Source of the DNA: Trichodelitschia bisporula | Taxonomy: Eukaryota; Ascomycota; Dothideomycetes; Phaeotrichales; Phaeotrichaceae | Reading direction: 5' to 3' | Assembly (NCBI GenBank): GCA_010356995.1 | Contig: ML996705.1 | Coordinates: 607,699 to 630,398, forward strand | DNA length: 22,700 bases | Notes under the pieces: generated by a model | Seen by the model: only the letters and a program-made list of their open reading frames with translations | Database searches by the model: none | Told to the model about the DNA's origin: nothing | Program-made: the position numbers and the translations under genes | In this document: positions 922-22,226 of the stretch, in pieces | Numbering within the stretch: the stretch's first letter is position 1 | Layout: each line of letters starts with the position of its first letter

Positions 922-2831
922 TCACACATACTCCGGCCAATAATTATACGGCATCAAAGCAGGGCCCCTCCAGCGCTCCCCATACGGGTTCACCCTCTGC
1001 CCCGCAAAGAACCCATCGTGCGCGTGCTCGATGACGGCCATCCAGGAGGAGGGCTCGGGGTGCTTCAACCACTGCGACCACATTAGCCCCTCTTCTCAAA
1101 GCTTCAAACGCAGCACCCCAAAAGGGCAGAAGCGCAACGTACCTGGTTATGCACATGATAACTCCAACTCCCCCTATAGAAATTCTCCAACGTCCGATTA
1201 TTCGCCGGGAACTTATCCTCGCTCACCACATACTCTCCAATCGCCCCCGCGCGCCGCAGCTCCGCCTCCTCAGCACTCGTCGCCGCGAACGAGTCCGTAG
1301 GCTCCGGTTCCGGGGCGGTAGGTGGATTCGCCCCCCTCCTCCTAAGCCCGACGCGCGTCGGCTCGTGTTCCGTCTCAACCGGGGGATCATAACTCTCCCA
1401 CTCATCCTTGACACTCCCGACCTTGCCCTTAAACGCCGCGCCATAGTCGCGCAAACAAGGCACCGTACACCGCCCCTCGCGATCCCAATTAAACTCCGTC
1501 CAGAGCGGATCGAACACCGCCGTTTCGAGCATGAGCAATTCCCCATCACGGCCATCCTTCCACGCCATTCTCCCAACAACCCTAGGATGGAAGTTCACGC
1601 CCATGCGCACGCCCCCGCGCAGCAGGTAACTCGACAAGCTCGAATTGGCAGAAAGGGACAGCACAGCCGTGTTATAATCCCCCGGATGACTATGCGCCGC
1701 CCAGCGCTCCGCAAACGCATGTTCTCGCGGCAGCAGCAGCGGGCGCATATCCCTCAGCAGTAGCACATCCATGTCGAAATACGCGCCGCCATGCAAGTGC
1801 AGAACCACGAAGCGCACGGCGTCGGAAACGGCCTGCGGGAGGAAGGTCATTTGCTTGGGCGTGAGGACGAGCCACTGCTGCCCGGACGCATCCTCCACAA
1901 TACCGTCCGCGACAATAAGCTCGCCCTTTACATTCTTGCGCTGCGGCGCCTTGTAGTACCCGAGCCCGTCGGTATGATCCTGCCCCGCGGGGAGCGGGAT
2001 CCGGGAGGGGAATTTCCACGTCCGGAGCACGACATCCCCTCTTTCAACCAGCGGTAGGAACCGCGCAAAGAGCGCATCCTTAGTGAGCATCTTCTCCACC
2101 GCGCCGGGGATGTTATCAGCATCGAGCCAGATGTTCAGCTGCGAGCAGGCGAGGTTCTGCGTGTACAGGTAGCTCTTGACGAAGATCTCGAGGCGCCACG
2201 TTGCGGGGCCGGTCCAGTATGTGTGGTAGGGGATGATGGGGCCGGGGCACGTGCCGCGGCTGGTTTTGTTCGGGGCGGCGTATGGCTCGTAGTGCGGGAG
2301 CGTGTTGGCGTGCCCGTCTGCGTTGGCGTATTCCGCGTTGTGCGGGTCCTGCGCCGAGGCGCGGTCGGCTGGGGGGGGGAGGTGGAAGTAGCGCTCGCCG
2401 CCTTCGGACAGGAACGTGAGGCAGGCGTGCACGTTGCGCATCTTCTCGAGCCCGGCATACGTGCCGCGGCATTCTTCGACGAGCAATTTCAAATCCGCCT
2501 CTGTATCCACATGCGGCCGGGGACCCAGGTAATCATCATGCGGGACGACGGCCGACTTCGGGCGATTAAACACATTCGCGTGCGGGTTTATCGTGACCGC
2601 ACTAGACGACGCGGCGAACTTGACCTTGACGCCGGCCTTGGTCGTCTTGAGTATGTCGGCTGGGCCTGATTTATCCAAAAAGGCGGGGATGCCGAGTTTG
2701 CCGCGGACGTTGGCGGGGCTGCGGGCGAGGATTATGATGCCGAGGATGAGGGCGTGGAGGAGGGCGGCGAACGTTAGGTTGCGGAGGAGGATGAGGATGT
2801 TGCGCAGCCGGGGGCGCGCGTCGGGGGACAT
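922..2831 (-). CDS. Golgi-type glycosyltransferase with DXD motif (GT32-like), two exons
   Basis: The predicted protein has 612 residues in two exons (2831-1143 and 1071-922). The 71-nt intron (1142-1072) has a GTACGT donor, a CTAAT branch site and a GCAG acceptor. Without splicing the frame ends at 1104 in an unrelated tail. With splicing HNQ joins WLKHPEPSSW and the C-terminus becomes well formed. Residues 1-15 are short and basic, 16-37 form one hydrophobic anchor, and the rest should be lumenal (type II topology). HGGAYFDMD at 348-355 carries the DXD (D353-x-D355) that binds nucleotide sugar through a metal ion in this superfamily (Gly_transf_sug Pfam family). N-x-S/T sites lie at N188, N396 and N545. 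I infer a secretory-pathway mannosyl- or galactosyl-type transferase; donor and acceptor are not visible. Its CT-rich promoter (purine-rich on the plus strand) lies at 2832-3500. Confidence 0.85.
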
Positions 2832-5013: not shown

Positions 5014-5538
5014 CTACTGCGCCTCCACCTCAGGCACCTCCTCCTCAACTTCCGGCTCAGCCGCCTCAACAGCCGGCTCATATGCGTCCTCAGCCTCATT
5101 CTCCGGCTCGGGCCGTTGCTGCTGCGGCCGTCCCTGCTGCGGGCGCCCCTGCTGCGGGCGCGGCTGATTCTGCCACTGCGGGCGCGGCTGGTTCTGCGGG
5201 CGCGGCTGGTTGCCGCTGCTCGGCCACGGGCGCACCTCGATGGTGACGCTGTCGTCGCTGTCGTCGTCGCGGCCGGGACGGCCCTGTTGAGGACGTCCCT
5301 GCTGGGGGCGGCCTTGCTGGGGACGACCTTGCTGGGGACGGCCTTGCTGCACGTACTCCTCGTCGTCGTCGTCGCGCGGTGCGCCGCCGCGGGGAGGACC
5401 GTTGCGCGGCGCGCCGCCGAAGCCGGCGAAGCCGCCGGGGCCGCCGAATTGGCGCGCCACGAGGGTGGAGGAGGACTCCGGGGCGGGGAGCGCGGTGGCG
5501 GCGCTGATGGCCAGGGCGAGGGCGAGGATGAAACGCAT
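5014..5538 (-). CDS. Small secreted QQGRP-repeat protein of unknown function
   Basis: A 174-residue single-exon frame. Residues 1-17 form a signal peptide (MRFILALALAISAATA, then LPAPESSS). A Gly/Pro/Arg-rich stretch (31-55) and an acidic DDDDEE patch (56-61) follow. Then come five tandem QQGRP units (64-88), a second acidic patch (91-96), three NQPRPQ-like units (110-128), two more QQGRP units, and a Glu-rich tail (144-174). There are no cysteines, and the repeats contain no dibasic sites, so Kex2 cutting between units is not expected. The single VAR-Q at 27-30 could be a propeptide junction. I do not recognise the family. The composition suggests a disordered extracellular or wall-associated protein. 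A TATA-like element lies about 110 bp upstream. Confidence 0.75.
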   Translation of the reverse strand: MRFILALALAISAATALPAPESSSTLVARQFGGPGGFAGFGGAPRNGPPRGGAPRDDDDEEYVQQGRPQQGRPQQGRPQQGRPQQGRPGRDDDSDDSVTIEVRPWPSSGNQPRPQNQPRPQWQNQPRPQQGRPQQGRPQQQRPEPENEAEDAYEPAVEAAEPEVEEEVPEVEAQ

Positions 5539-6984: not shown

Positions 6985-6991
6985 TATATAT
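6985..6991 (+). promoter_or_regulatory. TATA box of the HGPDGDDDH repeat-precursor gene
   Basis: TATATAT directly after a G-rich run, 79 bp upstream of the ATG at 7070, with a short A/C-rich leader between. The spacing fits a core promoter. Confidence 0.6.
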
Positions 6992-7069: not shown

Positions 7070-7796
7070 ATGAAACTCACTCTCCCCCTCCTCACTCTCT
7101 TCGCGTACGCACCTCTCTCTCTCTCTCTCTCTGTAGAACCCGACTAACCGAAGCAGCGCCCTCGCGGCCGCGCACGGCCCGGACGGAGATGACGACCACG
7201 CTCCTGCGCCGGTTCCTACAACGACTACGACGCCGGCCGTGGTTGTGAGGCGGCATGGCCCGGACGGCGATGATGATCACGCGCCGGTGCCTGCGCCGGT
7301 GACGACGGCTACGCCCGCGGTTGTAGTGCGGCGACACGGGCCGGACGGCGACGACGACCATGCCCCTGCGCCTGTGCCCGCCCCCGCGAACACGACTACG
7401 CCGGCGGTTGTAGTGCGGCGACACGGGCCGGACGGCGATGATGATCATGCCCCTGCACCGGTGCCCGCCCCCGCGAATACGACTACGCCGGCGGTTGTTC
7501 GGCGGCACGGGCCGGACGGTGATGACGACCATGCCCCCGCTCCTGCGACTACGGCTACCCCGGCTGTGGTGGTACGGCGGCATGGGCCGGACGGCGATGA
7601 TGACCACGCTCCGGCGCCGGTGACACCGGCTACGCCCGCGGTTGTGCTCCCTGCGCCGGTGACGACGGCTACGCCTGCCGTGGTTGTGAGGAGGCACGGC
7701 CCGGATGGAGATGACGATCATGCTCCGGCGCCTGTGCCGGCGACGCCTGCGCCTGCGCCGATACCCACGACGCTGGTGCCTGTTGTGAGGCGCTGA
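7070..7796 (+). CDS. Secreted Kex2-type repeat precursor with seven HGPDGDDDHAP units
   Basis: Two exons: 7070-7104 and 7154-7796, predicted 225 residues. The 49-nt intron has donor GTACGC, a CT repeat, branch site GACTAAC and acceptor GAAG. This splice is the only one found that joins the signal sequence to the open repeat frame, and it produces a normal signal peptide ending SALAAA. Seven units of 27, 27, 29, 28, 25, 38 and 33 residues follow with nothing between them. Each begins with the invariant HGPDGDDDHAP, continues with a variable Pro/Thr/Ala/Val spacer and ends VVRR (usually VVVRR). The last unit ends RR and stop. Arg-Arg is the classic Kex2 site, and signal-peptidase cutting after AAA would expose the first unit at the same His. 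This matches the design of fungal KEP proteins (pheromone precursors, repellents, dikaritin RiPP precursors). There is no Tyr or Cys in the units, so dikaritin-type cyclisation is not expected. Function of the peptides is unknown. Confidence 0.82.
7173..7793 (+). repeat. Seven in-frame coding repeats (HGPDGDDDHAP ... RR)
   Basis: Unit boundaries at His codons: 7173, 7254, 7335, 7422, 7506, 7581 and 7695. Among the 11 core codons, ten differ between copies only by synonymous changes (for example CAC/CAT, GGC/GGG, GGA/GGC/GGT, GAT/GAC, GCT/GCG/GCC), and only the first Pro codon is constant. The Arg-Arg codons also vary (AGG, CGG, CGA, CGC). Spacers vary in length and sequence. Unit 6 contains a second TATPAVV block without an RR after the first. 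Confidence 0.93.
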
Positions 7797-10798: not shown

Positions 10799-12208
10799 CT
10801 AAAGCTCATCATCCTCCTCCTCATCCTCCCGCCCCATCTCACTCGACAAAATCACCCCCTTCCCCCCCCCAGGCGGCAGCGGAATCCGCCACCCCACCAA
10901 ACTCTGCGGCAACGCCCCCCTCCCCTCCCCCAGCAAACTATCCTGGCTCCACCACCACGCCTCCCCTTCTGCTCTCCCAGCCCCAGTCCCTCCAGTCCCA
11001 CCCGTAGACTGCGGCGCACTCGACGGCAACTCCTCGCCCTCGGTCTCCGTCTGCGAGGGCGGCGGTGAGTGGGCCGAGGGCGGGCGAGTAGAGCCTGGGT
11101 TCGTGGGCAGCGGGTGAGTGGAGAAGAAACTCGACCTCGGCGCACTCGACGGCGGATAGCTCGGATACCGCGGACTCGCACCCCCCTCCTCCTTCACCGG
11201 GCTCGGCCCTAGATCCGGGACCTGCGACTCCTGGAACCCGGTATCTCGCGCCCTATGTCTAGCCAAATAACTCATCTCCGTCTCGAGCTGCGAGTCTGGC
11301 TGGGAGTCCCAGAACGGGCCCCTCGGCCTGCCGAGCTCATTCCTTCCGAGCTCGTTCCTTGTCAGCTCGTTCCTTGCATGCTCGTACCTCGCAAGCTCGT
11401 CCCTCACTCGCCGCGGCGAGGGCGAGAGGTCCAGCGGTGGTGCTTCGGGGGACACGGAGCTGGGTACTGGGGGGCGGGATGAGAAGGGTGGGGTGCGGGG
11501 GGGTGGGAGCGTGTGTTGCGTCATGAAGAGGGGGGATTCGGTTGCGGCCTGGAGGGCTGCGGTGGCTTGGGTTGCTTCGCCGTTTTGGCCGAGGCCGATG
11601 TTGAAGCGGTCGAGGGGGGGTGGGGGGTAGGATTCTTCGTGCGAGTGGTGCGTTTCGTGCTCGTCGTGCTCCTCGTTGTGCTCCTCCTCGAGGTCCTCGT
11701 GCTCCTCATGCTCCTCGGCATGCTCCTCGTCGTGCGCCATCTCGTGGTCCTTGTTGTGGTCCATGTCGTGCTCCTCGTCGTGCTCCTCGTCGTGCTCCTC
11801 GTCATGCTCTTTCTCACGTTCCTCCCCGTGAACCTCCTCGCGCTCCCGGCCGAGGTGGCCATTAAACCGGGCCGGCGAGGCAGGGCGATACAACGAAAAT
11901 TTACCACGGTCCTTGTCCCCTGCTTCCGAGGGTGAGGATGAAGGTATTTCGGGAAGCTCTATCCAGGCCATTTGCGTAAGGGTAGTTTGATCGAGGGCCT
12001 TTTTGGGCGGGCGGGGGAGCCGGGCGGGTTGTGGTGAAGAGGGCCGGGCGAGACGTCGTGGCTGAACGAAGGGGAGTTGAGTTAGAGTTGATTGTGCTAG
12101 ATCACGGTCGCGCTTTTTAGGTTTGCGTCGCTGGGCGGTGGTGGGTGGTGTGTCGTTCTCGTCGTCGCCGGTGGTGGGGAGGGCGGCGCGCTTGCGCTTT
12201 GGGGCCAT
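10799..12208 (-). CDS. Disordered Glu/His-rich nuclear-type protein with duplicated TLTQ motif
   Basis: I start the protein at the ATG at 12208 (context AACC-ATG-G, MAPKRKR), giving 469 residues. The same frame is open to 12433, but that extension is Ser/Thr/Pro-rich without structure and I treat it as leader. Residues 1-35 contain basic clusters (KRKR; RRKPKKR), probably nuclear signals. A 12-13-residue motif occurs twice: LAQSTLTQLPFV (38-49) and LDQTTLTQMAWI (73-84). Residues 123-192 are almost entirely Glu/His/Asp built from EEHD units. About 290-325 holds ELxRxE/NELGR repeats. The C-terminus has WWWSQDSLLGEGRG, PQSLVGWRIPLPPGGGKGV and a final acidic DEEEDDEL. I do not recognise the family; most of it should be disordered. 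A nuclear adaptor role is inference only. Confidence 0.65.
   Translation of the reverse strand: MAPKRKRAALPTTGDDENDTPPTTAQRRKPKKRDRDLAQSTLTQLPFVQPRRLARPSSPQPARLPRPPKKALDQTTLTQMAWIELPEIPSSSPSEAGDKDRGKFSLYRPASPARFNGHLGREREEVHGEEREKEHDEEHDEEHDEEHDMDHNKDHEMAHDEEHAEEHEEHEDLEEEHNEEHDEHETHHSHEESYPPPPLDRFNIGLGQNGEATQATAALQAATESPLFMTQHTLPPPRTPPFSSRPPVPSSVSPEAPPLDLSPSPRRVRDELARYEHARNELTRNELGRNELGRPRGPFWDSQPDSQLETEMSYLARHRARDTGFQESQVPDLGPSPVKEEGGASPRYPSYPPSSAPRSSFFSTHPLPTNPGSTRPPSAHSPPPSQTETEGEELPSSAPQSTGGTGGTGAGRAEGEAWWWSQDSLLGEGRGALPQSLVGWRIPLPPGGGKGVILSSEMGREDEEEDDEL
11640..11830 (-). repeat. Low-complexity coding repeat (Glu-Glu-His-Asp units)
   Basis: Imperfect 12-bp units (plus-strand GTCGTGCTCCTC) encode EEHD and variants (MDHN, EMAH, EEHE). 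The strand is almost free of stops in several frames, which explains the long antisense frames here. Confidence 0.85.
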
Positions 12209-12433
12209 GGTTAATATGGTGGTGGGATGCGGCGATACCGGAGTAGGAGATTCAGGTCCAGTTGTGTTAGACGAGGTCGATGGGCAGGGCCGGTGTGAGA
12301 GGCTACACTGTTTGGTGTGACTACTGTGCTGCACTGGAGCTGACATTGATATGAATGAAATGGATTTGAGGTCGTTGGGACGCGCGCCGCGATTGGTCGT
12401 GCGCGTCTCGCGTGGCGCGTGTGCACGTGGCAC

Positions 12434-13007
12434 TGAGGGCTAGGCACATGGAGAGTTGGGGTTTGGGAGGCATAAGATAGGGAAGGAGGTGTTTGGATTT
12501 ATTGAATATGCTTTTGAATGCTTTTTGTGTGGTTTGGCTGGTCTTGTTTGGGGAGATTTTGTTGTGTGTGTTCTCTTGCTGTTTTGGGCGCCAAGTGGGC
12601 TCCGTCGCGGCAAGGCTGATGGATCGGGGACGACAGATCGTGCATTGCGTTGGGGAGTTTGGGCTCAGCCTGCGGGCTGGGAGGAGGGCTTGCTGATATT
12701 TATTAGAATATACTTCAGTAGTGGGGATGGTTTCCCTTCGTCTTTTGGGCCTTGTCATGATGGGTAGACAGAGATTTCTTGTTAGGCAAATGTCGTCGTG
12801 GGGGGCATCCTCTGCCTTGCGTTCGGCTACAGTGGAGGAATATCCGCATATGGCACACTAGTTTACTACTCATACACTTTATTACTTGCACAGAGACTAA
12901 AAGTACAACGTTTTGACAGTTCGCTCATACATCACTTCCGCTTTCCTCCCCCAAGTCCGGCAAGGGGCCTACCTTTTTAGGCGGGGGTCAGACCCCTTAC
13001 CAGGCTT
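12434..13007. other. Intergenic region upstream of the Glu/His-rich gene
   Basis: About 570 bp between the start side of the Glu/His-rich gene and the 3' end of the decayed gene. The right end has short inverted repeats, including GGGGTC-A-GACCCC near 12985-12997. No coding frame is supported. Confidence 0.5.
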
Positions 13008-16983: not shown

Positions 16984-17583
16984 TCAGCACATATTCACGT
17001 TGGTCGAGCACCCTTTGAACCCATTCCCGCAAACATTGTAAATCCCCGTGCCAATAGGGCAAACACCCGGCTCCACCTTGCCCGAGCAGCGCACATCATT
17101 CTTATTCCCCAGGCAGCCAAGGTAACCCGTCGCGCAAACACCAGCACCAAAGTATGTGGTATCCGGGGGGCACTTCCAGCCCGCATTCTCCCCCACACCC
17201 TCTGCCACAATCGGAATCTGCACCGGCAGCGCCTCAGCCCCGCCCAGACCCTTCAAGTCACACACATTCGTCCGCGTGGTGCAGCCGATGAAGCCATTAG
17301 CGCAGTTGTAGAAGTTGCCCAGCCCCTGCTCGCCGCTGCAGTCGTTGTAGAAGCGCTTCGAGCCAGCGCACACGGAGGAATAGCGCGCAAAGTTGACGCA
17401 GCCAATGAATCCGCTGGGGCATTTGTCTTCCTTCGCCTGGTACCAGGTGCCCGTGGGGCAGAAGCTGGAGGGGTCGGCAGTGACGCCTGGGGCGGCGTTG
17501 GAGGGGACTTCGCTGATGGCGACGATGAGCATGGGATTCGCCGCGGCGAGGAGCGGGAGGAGGGTGAGGATTGGGATGTACAT
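16984..17583 (-). CDS. Secreted cysteine-rich protein with four 4-Cys repeats
   Basis: A 199-residue single-exon protein. Residues 1-15 are a signal peptide (MYIPILTLLPLLAAA). The mature part has 16 cysteines in four copies of one unit, C-x(9-12)-C-x2-G-[FY]-x-G-C-x(6-9)-C. The units are C42/55/62/72, C82/94/101/108, C138/150/157/166 and C175/185/192/199. The central C-x6-C block is PSGFIG, ANGFIG, ATGYLG and GNGFKG in turn. The middle gap is always six residues. The last Cys is the final residue. A 29-residue linker separates units 2 and 3, so the protein looks like two pairs. No membrane anchor or GPI signal follows. I do not recognise a named family. An apoplastic or wall-associated, disulphide-rich protein (effector-like in size) is the likely class. 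A TATA box lies 90 bp upstream. Confidence 0.85.
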   Translation of the reverse strand: MYIPILTLLPLLAAANPMLIVAISEVPSNAAPGVTADPSSFCPTGTWYQAKEDKCPSGFIGCVNFARYSSVCAGSKRFYNDCSGEQGLGNFYNCANGFIGCTTRTNVCDLKGLGGAEALPVQIPIVAEGVGENAGWKCPPDTTYFGAGVCATGYLGCLGNKNDVRCSGKVEPGVCPIGTGIYNVCGNGFKGCSTNVNMC

Positions 17584-17672
17584 GGTGATTGGATGGTAGA
17601 TACTTTGTGGTTGTTTGGTTGAATGTTGTAGTTTGGCGACTGATGTGGAAGGAATTGCGTGATTTTCGGCTC

Positions 17673-17680
17673 TTTATATA
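17673..17680 (-). promoter_or_regulatory. TATA box of the 4-Cys repeat gene
   Basis: TATATAAA on the minus strand, 90-97 bp upstream of the ATG at 17583. It is a strong consensus TATA at normal fungal distance, as expected for a regulated secreted-protein gene. Confidence 0.65.
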
Positions 17681-19296: not shown

Positions 19297-19414
19297 ACAT
19301 ACGGCCATAGATCAGAGAATGCACCAGTCCCCGTCTGCTCACTGAAGTTAAGCTCTGAATCGGTAGACTAGTAGTTGCGTGGGTGACCAGCAGCGAATCC
19401 CTGCTGCTGTATGT
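19297..19414 (+). rRNA. 5S ribosomal RNA, copy 1
   Basis: A 118-nt 5S rRNA. ACATACGGC at the 5' end pairs with the 3' end GCTGTATGT (helix I). The internal promoter has its A-box-like part at GTTAAGCTCTGAA and its C-box at GCGTGGGTGACCAGCAGCGA. Helix III-type arms CAGAG/CUCUG with a bulged A are intact. Transcription should stop in the T-runs after the gene (TTTTAATCTTTTT). An AT-rich TATAATAAC-like block lies about 20-30 bp upstream, where fungal 5S genes often have a TATA element. Confidence 0.9.
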
Positions 19415-19608
19415 TTTAATCTTTTTGCACTCCAGGAGCTCGCAGATCGGCCCGTCCAACGGGGGAAGCTCCGAAACTCAAACCGAGTTGACTTTTGGTC
19501 TCAGGCCATAGGAGAAATTCGTGCCCGGCCTGGGGGTTCGTGTTCCTTTTGACAAGACTGGCCGTCAACCGCCCGTCATCACTAACTTGTTAATACAATA
19601 AGTCCATC

Positions 19609-19726
19609 ACATACGGCCACAGGTCAAAGAGAACACCAGTCCCCGTCTGCTCACTGAAGTTAAGCTTTGAACCGGTTGACTAGTAGTTGCGTGGGTGACC
19701 AGCAGCGAATCCCAACTGCTGTATGT
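19609..19726 (+). rRNA. 5S ribosomal RNA, copy 2
   Basis: 118 nt, same orientation as copy 1 and 312 bp further on. The arm equivalent to CAGAG/CUCUG is CAAAG/CUUUG, so a base pair has changed on both sides. The outer part has GGU/ACC where copy 1 has GAU/AUC. Followed by T6-GTC-T6, a strong Pol III stop. About 90 bp of the downstream flank (GATCGGCCCGT ... GGAGCTCCGAA) resemble the flank of copy 1. Confidence 0.92.
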
Positions 19727-20063
19727 TTTTTGTCTTTTTTGCACCCCGGAAGCTTGCTGATCGGCCCGTTCAGCGGGAGGAGCTCCGAAGCTTAACGTAA
19801 GCCGACACTTTGGCCAAAGGACCAGCCGAAAAAGTCATAGCTGTCCCGTCCACAAAATCAAGCAGGCGAGATGGCCATGATAATTTTTCAGGTGGCCCGT
19901 GAAGCTTTTTGCTCGGCCGGCTGATCGAGGGGAGATGCTCCGCAGCTTAACGCACGTCCCCTATTCCAACCCAAAAACGCTCTCGCTCGGAGAGCTAACA
20001 CTTCTTTTGACAATGCTTCCGTCTTCTTCGCCAGCTATTAGTTAACTGGCAGCACAGTCCACC
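19727..20063. other. Spacer between 5S copies 2 and 3
   Basis: About 340 bp with no gene. It contains the flank shared with copy 1 (19740-19830) and, at about 19907-19955, another weaker copy of the same flank (CTGATCGAGGGGAGATGCTCCGCAGCTTAACG) with no 5S gene in front of it. Confidence 0.55.
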
Positions 20064-20181
20064 ACATACGGCCATAGGTCGAAGAGTACACCAGTCCCCG
20101 TCTGCTCACTGAAGTTAAGCTTCGAACCGGTTGACTAGTAGTTGCGTGGGTGACCAGCAGCGAATCCCAACTGCTGTATGT
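20064..20181 (+). rRNA. 5S ribosomal RNA, copy 3
   Basis: 118 nt, same orientation as copies 1 and 2. The arm is CGAAG/CUUCG with the bulged A and GGU/ACC outer pairs, a third compensated version of the helix. The internal promoter blocks are identical to those of copy 2. T5 and a second T5 follow directly. The downstream flank differs from those of copies 1 and 2 after about 20 bp. Confidence 0.92.
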
Positions 20182-20402
20182 TTTTGCCTTTTTGCTTTTC
20201 TGCGGGTGGATTCACACGGCCGAGGGGTCGACAGAGTGCTGAGAAGTAAGGCGGGACTCGAAGCCCGGATAGGACGGTACAGTTCGGAATCAACATTTCG
20301 CACCGGTGGAGACTGACGGAACAGCCGTAATGACCTCAATGAATTCAACTTCCAGCCATTAGCAAGATGCCTCTTAGCCGCCAAAAACCCAAAGACGAGG
20401 AC

Positions 20403-21841: not shown

Positions 21842-22108
21842 GCGTGGGCGGGTGTTTGGTTGACGTTGAGATGGTGAAGTTTGAAGCACTTTTTGGGTGT
21901 GGCTGAAGGGTGGGCCAAGGCGCTAGCGCGCGTGGATGTGGCGGTACGGGGATGTCAGTCTTTTGCGCGCAATCGATGAACAGTCGCGCCGCTGGGTGCG
22001 GGCAGAGCCTGGATATCAAATATGAATATTACCACGGTTTTTCTAGCAGTCTTTCATCGGGGTAAAAAGATTGATCCCGAGGACATCTCCGAGTGCAAAA
22101 AGACAGAA

Positions 22109-22226
22109 ACATACAGCAGTTGGGATTCGCTGCTGGGCACCCACGCAACTACTAGTTAACCGGTTCAAAGCTTAACTCCAGTGAGCAGACGGGGACTGGT
22201 GTATTCTTTGGCCTGTGTCCGTATAC
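22109..22226 (-). rRNA. 5S rRNA-like copy 4, inverted and degraded
   Basis: 118 nt on the minus strand, clearly alignable to copies 1-3 but with more changes. The 5' end reads GTATACGGACAC instead of ACATACGGCCAT. The C-box has GGGTGCCCAGC instead of GGGTGACCAGC. One outer helix pair is broken (GGC opposite ACC). The first T-run is interrupted (TTTCTGTCTTTTT). The length is unchanged. It may be a pseudogene or a variant copy; the uncompensated helix change favours decay. Confidence 0.75.

Follow-up and report, generated by a model that had tools for sequence, protein, structure and literature searches.

A predicted seven-peptide Kex2-type precursor of Trichodelitschia bisporula and the recurrence of its HGPD head in other secreted-looking proteins

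A gene that, by its architecture, most likely encodes a Kex2-processed repeat protein (KEP) was identified in Trichodelitschia bisporula (assembly GCA_010356995.1, contig ML996705.1). It lies in a window of 22,700 nucleotides, positions 607,699 to 630,398 of the forward strand, and window coordinates are used below. We consider it likely that the product is a Kex2-processed precursor of seven peptides, whose common head, HGPDGDDDHAP, is shared with other secreted proteins and perhaps binds metal. The KEP layout itself is known; what is new is the predicted placement of HGPD at or near the mature N-terminus of five further secreted-looking proteins. The gene model of the precursor comprises the following features.

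6985..6991, plus strand: possible TATA box TATATAT, about 80 nt 5' of the ATG, read from the sequence
7070..7104, plus strand: exon 1, ATG and the greater part of the signal peptide (MKLTLPLLTLF plus GC)
7105..7153, plus strand: intron of 49 nt, GTACGC..CTAAC..AAG; an alternative acceptor, CAG at 7156 (52 nt), is in frame too
7154..7796, plus strand: exon 2, end of the signal peptide, seven units and stop (7794-7796)
7173..7253, plus strand: unit 1, HGPDGDDDHAPAPVPTTTTTPAVVVRR, 27 aa; the preceding AAA agrees with the signal-peptidase -3,-1 rule
7254..7334, plus strand: unit 2, 27 aa, ending RR
7335..7421, plus strand: unit 3, 29 aa, ending RR
7422..7505, plus strand: unit 4, 28 aa, ending RR
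7506..7580, plus strand: unit 5, 25 aa, ending RR
7581..7694, plus strand: unit 6, 38 aa, tail duplicated internally, ending RR
7695..7793, plus strand: unit 7, 33 aa, ending RR directly before the stop

Splicing of the intron is predicted. When GT-AG pairs were tried over 7070-7200 with introns of at least 35 nt, the ATG was joined in frame to the array with a single stop only when donor 7105 was paired with 7153 or 7156 as acceptor, giving 225 or 224 aa, respectively. Both acceptors yield a signal peptide ending in AAA before the first His, in line with the -3,-1 rule, a residue rule for signal-peptidase cut sites. A CTAAC branch-type site is present at 7144-7148, and CAG 7156 may be the true acceptor because the branch-type A is 9 nt away. 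Acceptor 7136 was ruled out, being out of frame with 8 stops. The exon-2 frame contains no Met, and therefore the unspliced array has no ATG. A comparable intron of 50 nt, with CTAAC and CAG, was modelled in C8, one of the other genes described below. Translation of the spliced exons confirmed the signal peptide and the seven HGPDGDDDHAP..RR units, the last RR standing before the stop, that an earlier note on this DNA had described.

The mature part of the precursor (207 residues) consists wholly of the seven units. The head and the terminal RR are constant, and the tails differ in length and sequence. Beyond K2, Lys and Arg are confined to the seven RR pairs, of which the final one occupies 224-225; with random placement, the probability that 14 Arg fall as exactly seven isolated pairs is 9.5e-10. 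Among the seven 11-codon heads, all ten variable nucleotide columns are third codon positions, and the minimum set of 13 changes is entirely synonymous (P 1.8e-9 to 2.6e-8 under a simple model in which changes are taken as independent, which gene conversion would violate). The heads have thus diverged silently and the copies are therefore not merely fresh duplicates; we naturally infer that selection acts on HGPDGDDDHAP. A GC-rich minisatellite without a product is a very improbable account of the array. The opposite strand does have a long open frame of its own, 235 codons within the stretch examined, but in the heads only third positions in the sense frame vary, the frame is kept through spacings of 75-114 nt, and the gene has a start codon, a signal peptide, splice signals and a stop codon in place. 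An antisense or non-coding repeat was ruled out by the third-position variation.

TRF reported the array at periods 75-87. The whole precursor has one match in its own genome (25.65 Mb, 30 contigs), and no relative was found in Pfam, NCBIfam or the PDB sequences. A bacterial promoter and terminator scan of the locus, of a type unsuited to a fungus, returned nothing. The computed pI of the peptides is about 4.1, their charge about -4 and their GRAVY -0.57 to 0.23. They contain no Tyr, Cys, Trp or Met and no aromatic residue apart from His, of which each has two. Their Thr/Pro tails could be O-mannosylated. Monoisotopic masses computed for the unmodified peptides after removal of RR include 2466.166 and 2434.176.

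By published definitions, a KEP has an N-terminal signal peptide and three or more similar repeats, each 8-100 aa long and bounded by Kex2 sites, with repeats making up at least 15% of the protein. The precursor has seven units of 25-38 aa, occupying 207 of 225 residues. A home-made rule detected the signal peptide (hydrophobic 9-mer 2.23, AAA before the cut). The producer also carries a kexin gene (C3:1689914, S8 and P domain) whose best PDB match is Kexin (2.6e-174); it holds the genome's one P-domain match over the cut-off, in frame with the subtilase domain. An S10 peptidase of the same genome matches KEX1(DELTA)P at 9.8e-62.

Five further secreted-looking proteins of this genome, here called C5, C8, C15, C21 and C23, also have HGPD at, or close to, the N-terminus predicted for their mature form. 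The DNA pattern HGPD[GDE][DE] gave 14 matches (reversed control, 2): seven in the precursor, four behind a signal-peptide-like start (C5, C15, C21 and C23) and three unconvincing. The last three (L031, L032 and L034) were set aside on account of their frames. The pattern [AP]HGPD gave 57 matches (reversed control, 32), all of which were examined. A home-made, splice-aware signal-peptide rule, devised after these genes had been seen, was passed by 5 of 5 [AP]HGPD sites continuing with [GDE][DE] versus 1 of 52 others (Fisher 1.4e-6); the one passing site, that of C8 (HGPDAPM), was counted as the sixth gene. A looser first rule, applied to the 52 others only, had flagged L087 and missed C8, whereas the splice-aware rule selected C8 only. 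Sites behind basic pairs were covered by [KR]RHGPD[GDE] (8 matches; control, 0) and [KRHQ]RHGPD (18 matches; control, 3). The 18 comprised five in the precursor, one in a C21 loop and 12 others, none of which looked secreted by eye and four of which have His or Gln before the Arg. Both patterns miss AGR as the second Arg, and so one of the six RR-H sites of the precursor was missed by both. Among 16 listed heads (precursor counted once), H-G-P is present in all, D4 in 15, D6 in 12 and D/E7 in 12; agreement at positions 1-4 is in part built into the method, because the own-genome cases were mostly found by an HGPD search. The HGPD head resembles a module destined to form a free N-terminus.

The models of these five genes are hand-made predictions; in the sites below, a slash stands directly before HGP or Gln. 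C21 (709 aa) contains FAD_binding_4 and BBE domains, and its nearest solved relatives by sequence are alcohol oxidase/MtVAO615. Its front end reads ..AHGLP/HGPDGDEPM, and an internal site, ..YKR/HGPDDMGGPM, lies in a Met-rich stretch. C5 (679 aa) is a paralogue of C21 by alignment, with the front end ..LGMP/HGPDGDMPAAP. Its internal site, ..QKR/HGPGMEM, occupies the same loop as that of C21; the flanks scarcely align and KRHGP is kept. This site is independent of the search because its fourth residue, Gly, cannot match the patterns used. Other KR sites occur in the two oxidases without HGP. The internal KR/HGP site was seen in the FAD/BBE-type oxidase pair at L053 2554-4770 and L054 3031-5209. 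Kexin cutting there would split the oxidase into two chains.

The remaining three genes encode smaller or compositionally biased proteins. C15 is Gly/Lys-rich (..ALP/HGPDGDDKHD; intron chosen among several possible). C23, 155 aa in the preferred model, whose intron was chosen among 14 possible pairs, reads MKLSLLFVAALSAFASA/HGPDEDEMP and has the C-terminal end HGHSHGSE. C8 (247 aa, modelled intron) reads ..ANAVP/HGPDAPM, has three RR/Q sites and ends in MAGMAGHGH. At its locus (L131 977-1767; C8:1255776-1256566), Gln-starting sections begin at MRR/QIPS, MRR/QVKA and VRR/QTSV, and MAGM and MAGMAGH motifs are present. C8 may release pyroglutamate peptides.

The position of HGPD relative to the predicted cuts differs among these proteins. 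In the precursor, in C23 and at the RR and KR sites, His would come first directly; in C21, C5, C8 and C15, two to six residues of XA/XP type would have to be lost beforehand. The LP, MP or VP before HG in these four genes means that a dipeptidyl peptidase (Ste13) or post-Pro cutting would be required. The head thus sits where a protease would leave His first, and therefore a free N-terminal His-Gly-Pro-Asp is, on the simplest reading, the working form; this form probably needs the free His. The claim that signal peptidase and Kex2 would expose the same first His gains support from the five further genes, in which HGPD stands at or near the likely signal-peptidase cut.

The same residues invite a reading of HGPD as a protective cap or trimming stop, in which XA/XP pairs are taken off by a secretory dipeptidyl peptidase that stops at H-G, Pro3 slows aminopeptidases and the head has no binding role. 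The residues before HGPD are indeed XA/XP pairs, LP in C21, MP in C5, VP in C8, SP-LA-LP in C15 and possibly LA-AA in the precursor, with the signal-peptidase cuts placed by eye under the -3,-1 rule. D4, D6 and the acidic run would be superfluous in such a cap, however, and the head also follows KR, a context in which this trimming is not expected; we regard this explanation as unlikely. An improbable alternative of similar standing keeps the same precursor and cutting but takes the peptides as hormone- or pheromone-like ligands whose common N-terminus is read by a receptor. Seven copies with identical heads would suit a ligand, and KEPs include alpha-type pheromones in the relevant part of PMC6339444. 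Against it, a head carried also by two large oxidases and Gly-rich proteins is odd for a diffusible ligand, the units lack Trp and Cys, and no STE13 XA/XP pair stands at the unit start.

We return to the reading of HGPD as a working free N-terminus. The homology search of the precursor and its head that the earlier note had called for covered 5.8 billion proteins, of which 8000 candidates were scored, so that counts of relatives are lower bounds; only a handful were found among the candidates scored. The precursor retrieved one relative at E <= 1, P0001 (E 3.6e-3), which has two sites, VKR/HGPDGDEEVMP and VKR/HGPDGDDEAMP, behind a separate domain. A search with P0001 led to P0002-P0004, each with one KR/HGPDG(D/A), to P0005 of Aulographum hederae (Dothideomycetes), which shares the domain of P0001 and has no HGPD, and, weakly (E 5.0e-3), to P0006, with three KR/HGPD sites after a Met/His-rich start. 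P0001-P0004 and P0006 come from jgi/lgn sources and were taken as metagenomic. A probe of joined heads retrieved P0006, P0001 and P0002 among the 8000 candidates scored. All eight HGPD sites of P0001-P0004 and P0006 lie directly after KR, which backs the proposed Kex2-type repeat layout. Among 7 pattern stretches in viral contigs and 181 in prokaryote contigs, no relative was confirmed.

The use of RR in the precursor and KR in its relatives fits a protease site and does not fit a spacer. This weighs on the idea of an uncut, secreted, Pro/Thr-rich wall or mucin-like repeat protein with RR as spacers, which we judge quite unlikely. The Pro/Ala/Thr-rich tails would agree with it, as would a neighbouring gene for another secreted-looking repeat protein without dibasic pairs (5017-5538, minus strand); yet Arg is present only as RR, and RR stands at the very C-terminus.

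Searched against the own genome, P0001 matched four stretches in the precursor window and two loci, on C11 and C2. P0006 gave no match there, an outcome that carries no weight by the terms of the search tool. These loci (L002, about 1441-2022, minus strand; L003, 1417-1710) encode the His-rich two-Cys domain CxPNxxE..HDINTG of P0001 and P0005, proteins for which no Pfam match was found. No HGPD was detected in the two domain genes by a six-frame scan of 5.5 and 4.5 kb around them; the one HGPD of the C11 stretch scanned falls in a different gene.

Other features were observed in the window. The neighbour at 5017-5538, about 1.5 kb from the precursor, begins MRFILALALAISAATALPAPE.., has QQGRP repeats and an acidic tail, and gave a weak Pro-rich Pfam match under the cut-off. 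No Pfam match was found for a protein that contains EEHDEEHDEEHD-type repeats in series (10802-12439, minus strand) or for a Cys-rich, secreted-looking protein in which G(F/Y)xGC motifs recur (16987-17673, minus strand). Four 5S rRNA genes lie within 3 kb (19297-19415, 19609-19727 and 20064-20182 on the plus strand; 22108-22226 on the minus strand).

Here, we propose a processing model for the precursor, in which secretion, cutting and trimming are deduced from the sequence. Signal peptidase would cut off the leader at the first His or a few residues upstream of it. Kexin would then cut after each RR, and a Kex1-like carboxypeptidase would trim RR from the released peptides. The expected products are seven acidic linear peptides of 23-36 residues, each with the constant head HGPDGDDDHAP followed by a Pro/Ala/Thr/Val tail that drifts between units. 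Several secreted proteins would carry the head at or near the mature front or behind an internal KR. Outside the cell, the head might bind a metal ion, perhaps copper, through the terminal amine, the imidazole and acidic residues.

Metal binding is our leading but weak functional guess, speculative and more apt to fail than to hold. It was placed first because of the Met/His-rich stretches in the relatives and the role of N-terminal His as a copper ligand. The former (MAGMAGH, HGHSH and GHSHGSGGMGMGMGSM) occur in C8, C21, C23, P0005 and P0006, and also in C15 if the modelled intron is right. Such sequence resembles metal-binding stretches of copper transporters. Codons for M[AS]GM[AS]G were found at nine genomic places (reversed control, 2), five of them in C8 and C21; the other four lie in short frames, with no HGP within the 901 bases examined. 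The precursor peptides have no Met and two His each, and a MAGMAG-type stretch is absent from the precursor and C5; the metal reading thus rests on part of the relatives.

A bolder form, which we find doubtful, is that HGPD is an unnamed, portable, metal-binding N-terminal module that works only as a free N-terminus, being unveiled by signal peptidase on oxidases and small proteins and by Kex2 within oxidase loops, and released in seven copies from the precursor. If so, the free peptides would perhaps supply metal to, or strip it from, secreted oxidases. A head common to free peptides and identifiable secreted enzymes offers a handle on KEP function, with one motif and one chemistry in several genes, and suggests that secretomes could be mined for residues conserved just behind signal-peptidase and Kex2 sites instead of for repeats or domains.

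The earlier note had not recognised the core as that of a described pheromone, repellent or dikaritin. In the main texts of 5.39 million papers, HGPDGD and RHGPD are absent, HGPDG occurs in one, and HGPDD, HGPDE or KRHGP in four together; by their descriptions these papers are unrelated, and supplementary KEP tables may hold the motif unnamed. HGPD is missing from the KEP cores given as conserved in the section concerned, and HGP has no occurrence in the main text of Umemura 2020 (PMC7329392). The words copper and metal are absent from the main texts of PMC6339444, PMC7329392 and PMC9769878, and a search combining KEPs with copper or metal binding gave no KEP paper among the matches listed.

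Several known systems resemble the precursor in part. Dikaritins (ustiloxin-type RiPPs) likewise derive from a Kex2-cut repeat precursor; they differ in that the seven peptides here hold no Tyr, Cys or Trp. A dikaritin assignment was rejected: among 11 genome matches listed for UstYa/DUF3328 (best candidates scored), none lies on the precursor's contig (C19). Ascomycete alpha-pheromone precursors share the Kex2-cut tandem units, and their core is of a Trp/Cys type. The units here differ, beginning HG with no XA/XP and lacking Trp and Cys. The alpha-pheromone pattern gave nine matches in the genome (reversed control, 4), and none of the six on the plus strand was convincing. Rep1 peptides are hydrophobic. 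Unlike them, the peptides predicted here are acidic (pI about 4.1); the Rep1 repellent precursor of Ustilago maydis, named in PMC6339444, is Kex2-processed and has no STE13 signature, as predicted here.

Many histidine-brace copper proteins begin with His-Gly. In such proteins, LPMOs included, the N-terminal His is a copper ligand, as stated in a portion of PMC10952591, and a free N-terminal His is likewise predicted for the precursor peptides. These differ in having neither a fold nor an established second His ligand; H1 and H9 are present in their sequence. The closest likeness is to KEPs, in the relevant sections of Le Marquer 2019 (PMC6339444), Umemura 2020 (PMC7329392) and Vogt 2022 (PMC9769878): a signal peptide, three or more similar units bounded by KR or RR sites, and repeats that fill most of the protein. 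Most KEPs are functionally unexplained in these sources, and KEP functions are described as largely unknown in PMC9769878. Unlike them, the precursor has a head that is predicted to stand also on non-repeat secreted enzymes.
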